21,958 nt of DNA from a virus. Positions 1 through 21,958 of this stretch are shown piece by piece; the stretch's first letter is position 1; the number at the start of each line of letters is the position of its first letter. The position numbers and the translations under genes were made by a program. The DNA lies in the IMG/VR virus record IMGVR_UViG_3300042991_000757, positions 1-21,958 of that record; one strand, 5' to 3'. The notes under the pieces are model-generated. The model worked only from the letters and a program-made list of their open reading frames with translations. It was not told the DNA's origin and did no database searches.

Positions 1-641
1 GTGGTGAATTGGATAGTTTCATTAGCAATATTGCTTTGATGCCAATGACTATGAGTGAGCATTGGATTCAAAACGTGCAAGCATTGGGAATGCTTACAGA
101 TGAGGAATGGAATAGTTTTGATGATGAAGGGAATTATAAAACTAATTTAGAACCTATTTCAAATAAAAGAATAATTGAAATAGAACAAAAGGTAAGAAGA
201 AGTCAAGGTAAAGGCTATCAACCGACAGACCAAAGGATGATACAAATGTATAGTTGGGGAGAAGCAATAATGCAATTCAATAGATTTTTACCTACAATGT
301 TTTGGGATAGATTTGCAAAAGAAGATGTAGATATTTATGGTAGAGAACATATTGGTACATTAAGAGCAGTGGGAAATGGTTTAAGAGAAGCAGTAGGTAA
401 AATGAGTCCAAAGGAATTTATTAATTATAGAAATTCATTAAGTCCGGAACTACAAAAGCAATTTGATAGTGGGTTAAAAGGAATAGGATTGAGTACAGTT
501 GCTTTAATGCTTGGCTATGGATTAAATAGTGAAATATCAAAAGAGCTATATTGGGATGCCAATTATTATGCTAATGCAGAGGGACTTTTATATAAAGGAG
601 TGCCGTCAGTATTACGCACCGGAATAGAAACATTTAATTAA
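1..641 (+). CDS. C-terminal part of a large (probably virion/polyvalent) protein, 5'-truncated
   Basis: The only convincing plus-strand gene. The reading frame is open from base 3 (codons GGT GAA TTG) and no ATG precedes it, so the gene enters from the left of the window and ends at TAA 639-641. About 212 residues are visible. They are rich in Trp, Tyr and Met, with a helical segment (GLSTVALMLGYGL, roughly residues 158-170 of the visible part) that could be a membrane or amphipathic helix. No catalytic motif is visible. Composition and position, converging on a minus-strand replication block, resemble the C-terminal end of the giant virion-cargo proteins of crAss-like phages; that assignment is inference. 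It ends 30 bp before the tRNA-like gene on the other strand. Confident as coding, weak on function. Confidence 0.7.
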   Translation, partial: GELDSFISNIALMPMTMSEHWIQNVQALGMLTDEEWNSFDDEGNYKTNLEPISNKRIIEIEQKVRRSQGKGYQPTDQRMIQMYSWGEAIMQFNRFLPTMFWDRFAKEDVDIYGREHIGTLRAVGNGLREAVGKMSPKEFINYRNSLSPELQKQFDSGLKGIGLSTVALMLGYGLNSEISKELYWDANYYANAEGLLYKGVPSVLRTGIETFN

Positions 642-6786: not shown

Positions 6787-9114
6787 TTATTTTAAAATAT
6801 ACACATTAAATTTTGCTCTTGTTAAAGCGGTATAAAGAGATTGTAATCTCCTTTTAGGACTAATAGGAATATGTTCTGACAACATATCATCAATGTCTAT
6901 ATAAACATTATTATAAGTACTTCCTTGTGATTTATAAGATGTAATAGCAAATGATGATGATATATTAGCAAATAAAGATTTAAATTTCCAATATTTATTA
7001 AATTTTTTATCTGAATAATACATATCACAAATAGTTTCATAAGTTATTTGACCTTTATCAGATGGAATTGGAAAACGTTTTTTATTACCATCTTCATCAG
7101 TAATATATATCATATAACTATCAACATCACTTATTTTATTATTGAGTATTTTTTCAATAATAAATTCACTACTATTTTGAATTACTACTCCCTCTGATTC
7201 ATTAAAATAAGTTTCATTAAAAAATATAACCTCTCCTTCAATAAATTTGTTATTAGGATAATTATATATTAAATTCCTTAAAGTATTGTTGTGAGAGTCA
7301 ATAATTGCGTTTCTATAACCAATTATTTTATTATTCAATAAATCATTTTTATGATGCTTGATATAATGAAATGGAAATGTGAATTTATCAAGCAAATGAA
7401 TTCCTTTATCATTAATAACATTTTCAGTTTTTAACAAATTCATTATTTTTTGAATATTACAATTATCTTGTATTTCTTTTGCTATTTCATTAGCAACAAA
7501 TACAATAGGATTATCAGCCTCTTGTCTTACAACTTCAGTAAGTTCTTGTGAAAGTTCTTCCGGTAAATTCCAATAAAAAACAGGACTATCTTTATTATTA
7601 TCTTTTATTGAAAGTATTGGTGGTAATTGGTTTTTATCTCCAACAAATATAATTTTAGTAAATATATTTGTTTCATTAAATACAATGTCTAACATTTCTT
7701 GTGAAAACATAGAACATTCGTCAATTACAAAACAAAGATTATCATATTTACAAATTGCATCTTTAATTTTATAAAGATTAGGCTCAAATGTTTTAGCTCC
7801 ATTTGATAATATCTTTTCTTTGTATCCGTAAGCAGATGCAAAAGTTGTAACATTAGGAATAGAACGAGCTAACACATTTTTTGCTTTATGCGAAACTGTA
7901 ATTCCAATAATATCATTTGACTTTGGAAATTCTTTTTTAAAATCATTAAAAGCGGTTTTAATCATCGTGGTATTATGTGTAACAGTATAATCATTAGTTA
8001 CATATAAATGCCTATCATCATCAACTAATAAACATTGACCATCCATATAACCAATAAAATTAGCAGAAATAATTTTCTTTTTAAATTTATAATAAAATTT
8101 ATGTTTTTCAAAAACATCTTTTCTATTGCTTATTTTAAAAGGATTAAATTTTGTTCTCAACGAAATATTATATTCAATCCCTTTGTCTTTTCTGTAAAAT
8201 TCTCTTAAAACAGCATAAGAACCTAAACTTCTTGCTAAATTTAAAAAATCATTTGCAAGAACATTAGAAATAGTAGAATAAGATAATTTCATTTTTGTTT
8301 TAAAATCAATAATAGAACCATCTGAATCCATCAAACCCTTTAATAATTCAATTCTATTTTCTATCGAATTATAAAGATAAGAATGTGGAATAAATTTTTC
8401 TTTTGATTTAACCCCCAATAATAAATAATGATCAAGATATTTTCTTAATCCAACATTAAAAGTTATTACACCTGTATTTGTATTTTTTTTTTTTAATTCA
8501 GATAATTTAACAATAACATCAAAAGGAACTATATTTTTAATTAAATCAAAAGTTTCTTGTATTCTATCAGAATTCATTGTTAATGTATATCCTCTATTAA
8601 TGGGAAAATATCCATTTCCTATTAATAAACCCATAAGATAGGGATGTAAAAATAAATCACTCGTTTTAAATTCAATTGGCTCTACTAAATCAACTGAATA
8701 ATAATAATTGGATTTAATATTTTTTGTTTTATTAATATTAGGTAATATTTCTTTTAATGAAAAAACAGAATATTTATTTTTTTCTATTTGTTTTTTTGTT
8801 TGAACTTCCCATAAATGATCTATACAACATCTTGTGGTTGATCCATCAGAAAAAGTAAGTTTATATATTTCTAAATTTTCTCCTTTAAAAGTTTCTAAAA
8901 CTTTTATTTGTTTTCCATACTTATTAATAACAAAACTTCCTTTTTTAATATTCCTCATTTCAGTATATCCATAAGGAGTTAAAATTGGTTCGTCATAAGG
9001 CTGTAATTTTCCGTGTCCGGCAGCGCCGGTAATTCTCATTACTCGGTGCTGGCTGGACAAGAAATTAATGATTTTATTTTTACCAACTTCTTGTGATGGT
9101 GTTAAAACTATCAT
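6787..9114 (-). CDS. SF1 DNA helicase (Dda/RecD-like) interrupted by an intein
   Basis: 775 residues; without the intein (37-381) the helicase is 430 residues, the size of T4 Dda. It unwinds DNA using ATP, probably 5' to 3' as for Dda/RecD2. Motifs: Q-like start LTPSQ; Walker A GAAGHGK|TT, split by the intein exactly between Lys36 and Thr382; Walker B FVIDECSM (462-469); motif III GDKNQLPP (492-499); motif V/SH3-side SYKSQGSTY (726-734); motif VI ALTRAK (763-768). All are intact. Until the intein is spliced out the P-loop cannot form, so helicase activity should depend on splicing. The stop is 9 nt before the clamp start; the start abuts the coiled-coil gene (stop at 9115). Confidence 0.93.
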   Translation of the reverse strand: MIVLTPSQEVGKNKIINFLSSQHRVMRITGAAGHGKLQPYDEPILTPYGYTEMRNIKKGSFVINKYGKQIKVLETFKGENLEIYKLTFSDGSTTRCCIDHLWEVQTKKQIEKNKYSVFSLKEILPNINKTKNIKSNYYYSVDLVEPIEFKTSDLFLHPYLMGLLIGNGYFPINRGYTLTMNSDRIQETFDLIKNIVPFDVIVKLSELKKKNTNTGVITFNVGLRKYLDHYLLLGVKSKEKFIPHSYLYNSIENRIELLKGLMDSDGSIIDFKTKMKLSYSTISNVLANDFLNLARSLGSYAVLREFYRKDKGIEYNISLRTKFNPFKISNRKDVFEKHKFYYKFKKKIISANFIGYMDGQCLLVDDDRHLYVTNDYTVTHNTTMIKTAFNDFKKEFPKSNDIIGITVSHKAKNVLARSIPNVTTFASAYGYKEKILSNGAKTFEPNLYKIKDAICKYDNLCFVIDECSMFSQEMLDIVFNETNIFTKIIFVGDKNQLPPILSIKDNNKDSPVFYWNLPEELSQELTEVVRQEADNPIVFVANEIAKEIQDNCNIQKIMNLLKTENVINDKGIHLLDKFTFPFHYIKHHKNDLLNNKIIGYRNAIIDSHNNTLRNLIYNYPNNKFIEGEVIFFNETYFNESEGVVIQNSSEFIIEKILNNKISDVDSYMIYITDEDGNKKRFPIPSDKGQITYETICDMYYSDKKFNKYWKFKSLFANISSSFAITSYKSQGSTYNNVYIDIDDMLSEHIPISPKRRLQSLYTALTRAKFNVYILK
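7972..9006 (-). mobile_element. Class 3-type intein with LAGLIDADG endonuclease domain in helicase Walker A loop
   Basis: 345 residues in frame (helicase residues 37-381). The C-terminal junction is canonical: VTHN|T. The N-terminal residue is Leu, not Cys/Ser/Ala. The sequence instead carries the class 3 triad: Trp in block B (IDHLWEV, two residues after the block-B His), Cys at block F position 4 (GQCLLVDDD, residue 361) and Thr just before the His-Asn in block G. In class 3 inteins the block-F Cys makes the first branched intermediate, so Leu1 is not a defect. Two LAGLIDADG helices follow: YLMGLLIGNGYF (159-170) and LLKGLMDSDGSI (257-268). The first has Asn where the catalytic Asp is expected. 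Splicing residues look intact, endonuclease activity doubtful. Confidence 0.88.
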
Positions 9115-12326: not shown

Positions 12327-13685
12327 TTATTTTATTTTCAAACTATTTATATCAATAATAAAATTCATATCAGATAGTTCCCCTTCTCTCTTTTTTGCTA
12401 CAATCAGGGTAGTATTAAAAAGTTCATCATTCGGAATTTCTATTCCGGGATTAGCTTGTTTTTTATAATATCCTTCTCGAAACAAAAAATAAACATCGTC
12501 AGCATCTTGCTCTATATTCCCACTTTCCCTTAAATCAGATAATTTAGGAATAGGTGGTACACGAAATTCAACACTTCTACCTAATTGTGCTAACGCTATA
12601 ATAGGAATATTATATTTTACAGCCAATTCCTTTAAGGTAGAAGTTATATAACCAATTTCTAAATCTCTGGTCCCATGTTTTTGTTTTGATCTTATTAATT
12701 GCAGATAATCAATTACAGCCCATTTAAGCAATCCTTGATTATAAAGTAACTCAAACTTCATTTTAATCTGTTCAATTGATTTTAAGCCGTCTGTAACATC
12801 AAATATTTGAAGATTTGATTTGTCTAATAATTCTGAATTTAATAATATTTGATCAACTTCATAATCAGTTAAATCACCTTTTTTTATTCGATTATAATTA
12901 ATATTTGTTTGAGCAGATATTAATTGGGATTTTACTTTTGATTTTGAAACTTCAAGAGTTATAAAACAACCGGCTCCTTTATCAGACATTTTTAAAGATA
13001 ATGCTTTCCCTAATAAAGATTTTCCCATTGAAGGTCTTGCAGCAATAATTATTAAATCAGTAGGATAAACACCGTCATAAATTTTATCATAGTGTTTAAT
13101 ACCTGTTTCAATAAAAACTTTTATATTATTTCGATAATTGTTTACTAATATTTCTAATTCTGTTTTATAATGAGTTTCTGTTTTTTTTAATTTATTAGTA
13201 ATTTCATTTAAAAGAGAATTATAATTATTTATAACATTATCTCCAAATTCAAAAACATCTTTACCAATAGAAGAAAAATTTTCATTTCTTAATGGTAATG
13301 TTTTCCAATAATCCCAAAGTACAAATTCTTTTAATTGAAATATATAATAATATAAATCAACACTATTTGAAATAATAAAATATTTTTGTTTTAAATTAAT
13401 AAGATACCATTCAGAATCTTCATTATCAAATGGCATATCATCAATTAAAATATTAAATCTTCTGAAATTATTTTCCATTTCTACTTTTAACCAAGTAGTA
13501 GTAAATATTTTATTTTCATTATAAATATTTACTAATGCTTCATAAATAATTTGATTACGTTCATCATTAAAATGCCACGGTTGTAAATCTAAATCTACAG
13601 CTGTTTTATAAGCATCAGTATATGATGTAAGTAAAACAATTATTCTATCTTCAATTTCTTTTCTTAATTTAATATCATAAAACAT
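12327..13685 (-). CDS. dnaB: Replicative DNA helicase, DnaB family
   Basis: 452 residues from ATG 13685; a TTG three codons upstream is less likely. Ring helicase that moves 5' to 3' on the lagging strand. N-terminal domain (about 1-110, LQPWHFNDERNQIIYEAL as in DnaB), linker, and RecA-like C-domain with Walker A ARPSMGKS (216-223), Walker B VIDYLQL (324-330), DnaB motif H4 SDLRESGNIEQDAD (383-396) and an Arg-containing end. All are intact. No primase domain is fused and no primase is in the window. It overlaps the preceding small gene by 11 nt and leads into the IHF-like pair. Confidence 0.95.
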   Translation of the reverse strand: MFYDIKLRKEIEDRIIVLLTSYTDAYKTAVDLDLQPWHFNDERNQIIYEALVNIYNENKIFTTTWLKVEMENNFRRFNILIDDMPFDNEDSEWYLINLKQKYFIISNSVDLYYYIFQLKEFVLWDYWKTLPLRNENFSSIGKDVFEFGDNVINNYNSLLNEITNKLKKTETHYKTELEILVNNYRNNIKVFIETGIKHYDKIYDGVYPTDLIIIAARPSMGKSLLGKALSLKMSDKGAGCFITLEVSKSKVKSQLISAQTNINYNRIKKGDLTDYEVDQILLNSELLDKSNLQIFDVTDGLKSIEQIKMKFELLYNQGLLKWAVIDYLQLIRSKQKHGTRDLEIGYITSTLKELAVKYNIPIIALAQLGRSVEFRVPPIPKLSDLRESGNIEQDADDVYFLFREGYYKKQANPGIEIPNDELFNTTLIVAKKREGELSDMNFIIDINSLKIK

Positions 13686-13923
13686 GTTTTTCAATTAATT
13701 TTAATGCGTTATTATAAGCGGATATTTGACCGATATCAAAATTTTGATTTTCTCTATCTTCAAAATCCCAATTATTTTTATTCATTAATTTATCAAATTC
13801 AGAAACATTATAATAATCTAAATTAAATTTATCATTATTTATAAGAATTCTTTGTTTAATTATATCTTCTATATCTTTTATTTCTTTTTTTAATAAATTG
13901 ATTAAATATTTTTTTTTTGTCAT
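13675..13923 (-). CDS. Small hypothetical protein upstream of DnaB
   Basis: 82 residues, mostly helical and Lys/Asp/Asn-rich. The N-terminal part (KKKYLINLLKKEIKDIEDIIKQ) is strongly amphipathic, and the C-terminal part (FDIGQISAYNNALKLIEKHV) is helical. No family recognised. It starts 3 nt after the DUF932 gene and overlaps the dnaB start, so it is coupled to both. A helicase-loader role would be context-only speculation. Confidence 0.7.
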   Translation of the reverse strand: MTKKKYLINLLKKEIKDIEDIIKQRILINNDKFNLDYYNVSEFDKLMNKNNWDFEDRENQNFDIGQISAYNNALKLIEKHVL

Positions 13924-13925
13924 TT

Positions 13926-14900
13926 TTATAAGGATTTTATAATTAAATTAAATGATTCTTGAAGTTTATTTTTTTCTGTTAGATAAAGATTTTTAAATTT
14001 ACTTTCATTAGAATTATAATTTTTATGTGATAAGTAAAAACTAATCCCATTAAATAAACCATAGGCAGTACCTGTAATTTTTTCTTGACCTATTCCTATT
14101 TGATATGATTTCCAAACATCTTCACGAATATTTTTAATACGTGTGCTATCTATTTTTTCACTTTTAAATACTTGCTCAATAAGTTTTTTAGCAACATTGT
14201 CTGGTATATAAGTTTTATTCATTTTATTGAAAATAATATTCATATTTTCAATATAAAGATTAGTAATACCCATAAGTTTATGTGCTTCTTTTAAAGAATT
14301 TTTAGCATTAATAGTATGTCTAATACTTACTTTATTTTTGATCCCCCCTAATGCTACATTAAGTGTATTATTACAAACAACACGAATAGGTGTAATACCG
14401 GCAACAATAGAACCGGAACCATCGTGTGAAGATGTAAGCAAAATATATATTTCAGTAGGATCATTATATCCTTTAATTTCAATATGATGTGGCATTTTTG
14501 CTGATATAAATATTTTTTCTCCATTTCCTAATGCTCCAGCTGTTTCAAACACAGCATCATCATCATCAATAACATTATCAAAAAATGAAAATACATCTGT
14601 ATTTTGAATTACCTTATAACGTTTTTTTACTATACCTAACGCTTGCATTGTATCAGTTCTAACAGTAGCATAATTATCTGTTATTAGTTTTGGCATTAAT
14701 GAATCTTGTTCATTAAATGCCGCTTCTTTATCAAAATAAATAGGTTTTAATTGTACTTCATAATCAAGATGCGCTAACTTAATTGCTTCTTCTGATGTTT
14801 TCGCACCATTTACTATTTGTCCTAAATCGTGCCATGCTTTTTCTGTTGAGAAAAATGACCATTCTTGTCGTTGTTCATTAAAGTTTAAATTGTGTGCCAT
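13926..14900 (-). CDS. DUF932 family protein
   Basis: 324 residues matching the phage/plasmid-like DUF932 (TIGR03299) pattern: AWHDLGQIV (22-30), YATVRTDTMQALGIV and YKVIQNTDVFSFFDNVI, IFISAKMP, then LLTSSHDGSGSIVAGITPIRVVCNNTL, the most characteristic stretch, and a C-terminal helical region. The biochemical function of the family is not established; members are widespread on phages, plasmids and integrative elements and are usually found near replication genes, as here. It opens the dense replication stretch that continues with DnaB. Confidence 0.93.
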   Translation of the reverse strand: MAHNLNFNEQRQEWSFFSTEKAWHDLGQIVNGAKTSEEAIKLAHLDYEVQLKPIYFDKEAAFNEQDSLMPKLITDNYATVRTDTMQALGIVKKRYKVIQNTDVFSFFDNVIDDDDAVFETAGALGNGEKIFISAKMPHHIEIKGYNDPTEIYILLTSSHDGSGSIVAGITPIRVVCNNTLNVALGGIKNKVSIRHTINAKNSLKEAHKLMGITNLYIENMNIIFNKMNKTYIPDNVAKKLIEQVFKSEKIDSTRIKNIREDVWKSYQIGIGQEKITGTAYGLFNGISFYLSHKNYNSNESKFKNLYLTEKNKLQESFNLIIKSL

Positions 14901-21726: not shown

Positions 21727-21770
21727 TTTATATTTAGTTATTTTACGTAAGTAAAATAATTAAATATAAA
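21727..21770. repeat. 20-bp hairpin with GTAA loop
   Basis: 21727-21746 and 21751-21770 pair over 20 bases with one G-T wobble and a 4-nt loop GTAA. It follows the 22-T run on the plus strand. Such a long, near-perfect A/T hairpin is a candidate origin, terminator or binding site. Confidence 0.8.
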
Positions 21771-21774
21771 TTAT

Positions 21775-21882
21775 TATCTAATTATTATATTATATATATA
21801 TATATATACGTGCGTGCGTGCGGGAATACAGTTTTTTTTTTTTTATATATATATATATATTATATAATATAATAATTAGATA
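21775..21882. repeat. 22-bp perfect inverted repeat flanking GC and poly-T tracts
   Basis: Arms 21775-21796 and 21861-21882 are exact reverse complements (22 bp, core AATTATTATATT). The 64-nt interval holds TA repeats, GTGCGTGCGTGC, GCGGGAATAC and a 13-T run. The 10-mer GCGGGAATAC occurs again at 21924-21933 after a second alternating tract. Confidence 0.8.
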
Positions 21883-21958
21883 TTAATTAGATACTAAGCG
21901 TGCGTGTGCGTGCACGTGTACGCGCGGGAATACCGAACTGATTTAATTATCCGTTTAC

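Follow-up and report, generated by a model that had tools for sequence, protein, structure and literature searches.

Gene organization and class assignment

A Dda-like accessory helicase gene of a low-GC tailed phage is very probably interrupted, between the Lys and Thr of its Walker A motif, by a full-length class 3 intein, for which a splicing pathway and a route of arrival are proposed below. The gene lies in the window (the whole 21,958 nt stretch of DNA that was analysed) and is a single minus-strand frame of 775 aa (6787..9114) that encodes the precursor of a Dda-like SF1B helicase. It matches the phrog_325 Dda-like helicase profile (E 4e-62) as well as AAA_19, AAA_30 and UvrD_C_2, and it carries the SF1B motifs. 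All features of the gene are on this strand, which the initial annotation had left out while giving the coordinates and residues of the insert correctly.

The N-extein (9007..9114; 36 aa) ends in the Walker A sequence GAAGHGK at precursor residues 30-36, the intein (7972..9006; 345 aa) occupies residues 37-381, and the C-extein (6787..7971; 394 aa plus stop) begins with Thr+1 in TTMIK at residues 382-386. The motif is therefore split after Lys, as GAAGHGK/LQPYDEP...VTHN/TTMIK. Five Dda-like helicases without an intein, those of Carjivirus, Delmidovirus (cr11_1), Flavobacterium phage Fpv1, Erwinia phage Kaldavass and Klebsiella phage KP15, could be aligned with the joined exteins over the junction, their GxxGxGK[ST] lying opposite GAAGHGKTT. 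The C-extein retains the helicase motifs DECSM, GDKNQLPP, YKSQGST and TALTR intact.

Class 3 inteins are defined by Trp at B12, Cys at F4 and Thr at G5, the WCT triad (PMC3196547). A 10-row alignment places Trp66 (B12), Cys325 (F4) and Thr343 (G5) of the helicase intein in the columns of this triad. Block B (8809..8829) reads CCIDHLW and holds Cys60, Cys61 and His64 (B10) in addition to Trp66; Cys325 (TGT; 8032..8034) is the predicted initiating nucleophile, and Thr343-His344-Asn345 (7972..7980) form G5-G7. Position 1 of block A is Leu1 (TTA; 9004..9006), which is neither Ser, Thr nor Cys and offers no nucleophile; the junction was set by the extein and fold alignments. The features of inteins in general are also present, namely a HINT fold (Z 18), His64, His344, Asn345 and Thr+1, and the Pfam Intein_splicing model gave no match to the helicase intein. 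The residues earlier named, in precursor numbering, as Cys361 and Asn381 are the right ones and correspond to Cys325 and Asn345 of the intein.

In a phylogenetic tree, all class 3-like rows, including the helicase intein and the published DnaB type, stand apart from six class 1 inteins with support of 99/93, a split that is weak as sole evidence because the outgroup comprises these six inteins and no class 2 member. The tree does not resolve the position of the helicase intein within the class 3 clade. The assignment made in the initial annotation, a class 3 intein in a helicase P-loop, is borne out by the agreement of alignment, tree, fold and empty sites, and the block-F Cys and block-B Trp are not displaced from F4 and B12.

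Fold of the intein

An AlphaFold2 model built from 78 rows had a pLDDT of 91.6 and a pTM of 0.92. Modelling, a step that the initial annotation had suggested, gave a HINT fold with class 3 structures first among the mini-inteins. The best HINT-only matches were the class 3 structures 6riy, 6bs8 and 6rix (Z 18.3-18.7, rmsd 1.5-1.9, 123-128 residues); other HINT-only inteins scored 17.6 or less, and class 1 mini-inteins trail by about 1 Z unit, so class is not decided by fold alone. Model residues 8..352, equivalent to intein residues 1..345, align with DnaBi1 1..139, placing Leu1 on Ala1 and Asn345 on Asn139.

The matched structures, DnaBi1 of M. smegmatis (6bs8) and MchDnaB1 (6rix, 6riy), share with the helicase intein the WCT triad, a non-nucleophilic residue 1, insertion after the GK of a helicase P-loop and a HINT fold that superposes at 1.5-1.9 Å. 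They differ in being mini-inteins of the replicative DnaB with Ala1, Cys48 and a DxxH block B, whereas the helicase intein has Leu1, Ile47, CxxH, a LAGLIDADG domain and a Dda-like host. The whole intein model matches PI-SceI, the VMA intein, with a Z of 28.4 over 335 residues, the likeness of HINT and LAGLIDADG domains extending along the full length; PI-SceI, however, is a class 1 intein with Cys1 and both catalytic Asp residues.

Relatives and insertion sites

Relatives in phage records were aligned, and the alignment then served to collect a further 160 from viral and genome contigs, giving 167 distinct inteins. Trp B12 was found in 164, Cys F4 in 166, Thr G5 in 165 and the full triad in 163, and the insertion site was GK/[ST] in 139; as the sample was drawn by the family's own profile, these counts hold for this family and should not be read as an unbiased survey of inteins. 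Class 3 inteins of this type are common across phages, usually at GK/[ST]. A phage origin of the class has reportedly been proposed before. With 1701 class 3 inteins already listed (PMC7891396), one further example is by itself no news.

No relative above about 39 % identity was found. Single-sequence searches of viral contigs with the intein gave no relative, with the C-extein a single match (37 %), and with the protein encoded at 13926-14900 no match.

The initial annotation had asked whether the site is empty in some related phages; it is, as in the five helicases aligned over the junction. Among 81 helicase loci examined in viral contigs, Walker A was uninterrupted in every one in which it could be recognized; in seven it could not, mostly where the contig or the match begins too late. 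An IMG/VR contig (L043) encodes a phrog_325 helicase in which a class 3 intein occupies the identical K/T junction, and RecD-like helicases of Opitutaceae and kin also carry a class 3 intein there. From these comparisons, the P-loop K/T site appears to be occupied at times and mostly vacant. The L043 intein shares host family and junction with the helicase intein but differs in Glu1, in Gly at B7 and in having only 30 % intein identity, and it probably represents a separate invasion. The P-loop of Dda-like helicases is a site that exists both empty and occupied, in the latter case by two or more dissimilar class 3 inteins. In the literature searched, no Dda-like helicase was reported to carry a class 3 intein, which does not prove absence elsewhere.

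The phage 'AQP...' class 3-type inteins (for example, those of Vibrio phage 1.161.O, Acinetobacter phage MD-2021a and Klebsiella phage KP13-16) resemble the helicase intein in length, block pattern, block-B Cys and GK/T site, at 30-34 % identity. Unlike it, they mostly have Ala1 and mostly reside in other host proteins (terminase, other helicases, RNA ligase).

Several annotations and loci were noted in passing. Among the RefSeq phage proteins that match the intein-containing query, several are annotated as 'DarB-like antirestriction' (e.g. NC_028972, NC_028999, NC_048709, NC_070998), and the intein itself is hit by PHROG terminase profiles; both are probable cases of annotation carry-over via shared intein sequence. 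In Staphylococcus phage CF5 (L013), a class 3-like intein with the F4 Cys and G5 Thr, and Ile at B12, lies at the GK/T of a gene annotated as RNA ligase. Three bacterial dnaB genes (L259, L262, L265) carry a class 3 intein in the P-loop and, farther along the gene, one of class 1.

Variation at position 1

Position 1 is Ala in 113 of the 167 inteins, the rest having 13 other residue types, and Ser1 occurs in five of the 163 with the full triad; in natural class 3 inteins this position is almost free. Leu is found there in nine of the 167, two of which, from Bacteroidaceae contigs, begin LQPYSEP. That Leu1 is an oddity or a sequencing error was considered and rejected. As Leu1 rows are scattered over several places in the tree, the residue is a natural variant without special meaning. 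The initial annotation had allowed for a Cys codon hidden at the N-terminal junction; TTA requires two base changes to encode Cys, so a single sequencing error could not mask Cys1. One change would give TCA (Ser), and since Ser1 occurs in WCT inteins, this would leave the class call unaltered.

Predicted splicing and alternative readings

The class 3 splicing pathway is established (PMC3196547, PMC5222942), and by analogy with it we infer splicing itself, its chemistry and the need of the helicase for it, and propose, likewise by inference, an arrival route. Cys325 would attack the Lys(-1)/Leu1 peptide bond, giving a branched thioester at block F; the N-extein would then pass to Thr+1 by transesterification, and cyclization of Asn345, assisted by His344, would release the intein. 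An O-to-N shift would finally link GAAGHGK to TTMIK, so that GAAGHGKTT, and with it ATPase activity, is regained. Until then the P-loop insert would be predicted to block the helicase ATPase, for which the P-loop RadA intein is a precedent (cited in PMC6195587). Constitutive splicing is the expected default.

That the element instead belongs to class 1 or class 2, and has W, C and T by coincidence, can hardly be credited. The class 1 intein gp41-1 shares block B and THN features with it and is the best PDB sequence match, although the top row, 6riz, is an engineered WCT variant of gp41-1. Against a class 1 or 2 assignment, Leu1 cannot act as a nucleophile, Cys is present at F4 in all 90 phage-group relatives while position 1 spans 14 residue types, and the class 1 rows stand apart in the tree. 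A second reading, judged very unlikely, is of a degenerate class 3 intein that has lost splicing, with the helicase gene reduced to a pseudogene or its work left to other helicases of the phage. The Asp to Asn131 substitution in the endonuclease domain (see below) could be taken as a sign of degeneration, the DnaB-like helicase encoded by the same phage could cover for the loss, and Arth_1007 provides an earlier case of a class 3 intein that is inactive (PMC3196547). However, the splicing-site residues are all intact, including the F4 Cys and B10 His that are both lost in the Arth_1007 pseudogene, and no helicase motif is lost from either extein, the frame being open in both. A class 3 intein with its splicing site preserved is the preferred reading.

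Redox or metal gating

The initial annotation further proposed that the intein gates fork activity by redox state or metal, and the anatomy does not support this proposal as stated. The phage encodes a separate DnaB-like replicative helicase (12327-13694) with an uninterrupted Walker A motif, so fork gating through the Dda-like helicase, which is not obviously a fork motor, is doubtful. In addition, the redox switch of DnaBi1 is a Cys48-Cys118 disulfide (PMC6195587), and the Cys48 column is occupied by Ile47 in the helicase intein, which thus departs from the DnaBi1-type switch. Cys was found at this position in none of the 90 phage-group inteins sampled; 66 of the 90 have Cys at B6 and 43 at B7. 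Block B of the helicase intein is CxxH, whereas published class 3 inteins have DxxH.

Redox sensitivity of another kind is possible by analogy, since H2O2 oxidizes the catalytic Cys of a class 3 intein and inhibits N-cleavage (PMC7664689). Oxidation might pair Cys325 with Cys61 or Cys60 and so hold the helicase as an inactive precursor until reducing conditions return, a counterpart of the DnaBi1 switch that uses a different partner Cys, but this is an unlikely reading. The intein has only these three Cys residues, and B7, the site of Cys61, corresponds to Asp62 of DnaBi1, described as near Ala1 (PMC6195587). Among the 167 inteins, Cys is present at B7 in 59 and at the Cys48 position in 32, and never at both in one intein; as each type is shared within clades, this exclusion may reflect common history and is not independent evidence. 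The replacement of the published partner by Ile47 counts against such pairing, Cys61 could have a structural role, and the Dda-like helicase is not the sole helicase of the phage. The broader idea that phage class 3 inteins use a block-B Cys (CxxH) beside the N-terminal splice site with the block-F Cys as a redox brake of their own, replacing Cys48-Cys118 of mycobacterial DnaB, is improbable to the same degree. If true, helicase activity would be restrained in oxidized cells through the block-B/block-F pair. The phage group, without the published partner and often with a block-B Cys, would allow a clear-cut test of how general redox control is.

Endonuclease domain, mobility and the GC3 island

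A LAGLIDADG domain is indicated by the fold match and by a match to Pfam LAGLIDADG_3. Only one of the two catalytic Asp residues is kept: motif E, LKGLMDSDG (8317..8343), has Asp229 (PI-SceI D326), while motif C, YLMGLLIGNG (8611..8640), carries Asn131 at the position of PI-SceI D218. Asn occupies this motif C position in 13 of the 167 inteins, the helicase intein among them. In LAGLIDADG enzymes, loss of a catalytic Asp should impair cleavage; judged by the Asn131 substitution, the endonuclease may be impaired and homing perhaps lost. Homing or gene conversion would have brought the intein in, and it is best regarded as a selfish element.

A possible trace of a homing event lies in the codons that adjoin the intein. 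GC3 is 12/23 (52 %) over codons 19-36 and 382-388 of the precursor, made up of 9/17 in the 18 codons on the N side (9007..9060) and 3/6 in the seven on the C side (7951..7971); the other genes have 10.8 % and the intein 7 %. The binomial P of 1e-6 is uncorrected and applies to a region chosen after looking. The flank-minus-extein difference in GC3, 0.44, is the largest of 162 intein loci (mean 0.00, sd 0.11). A general coding feature of P-loops was rejected as the explanation, as GC3 is 1/24 in the P-loop of the DnaB of the same phage and at most 0.28 in nine AT-rich empty-site helicases. The island suggests the footprint of co-conversion or patch transfer in homing, in which case the AT-rich intein would derive from a donor in which intein and exteins differed; alternatively, a GC-rich patch was there before the intein and created the target. 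Phage records and viral contigs yielded no DNA donor of the island.

Other features of the window

The region 870-1503 encodes a DUF4116 repeat protein (1025-1486) with 66 nt repeats and includes a further, diverged 168 nt copy at 870-1037. Genes for PcfJ-like and PcfK-like proteins adjoin each other in this phage contig (16499-18189). Near the right end, next to a RadC-like gene, there are AT-rich nested inverted repeats (21769-21888) of 26-28 nt that are up to 96 % complementary.
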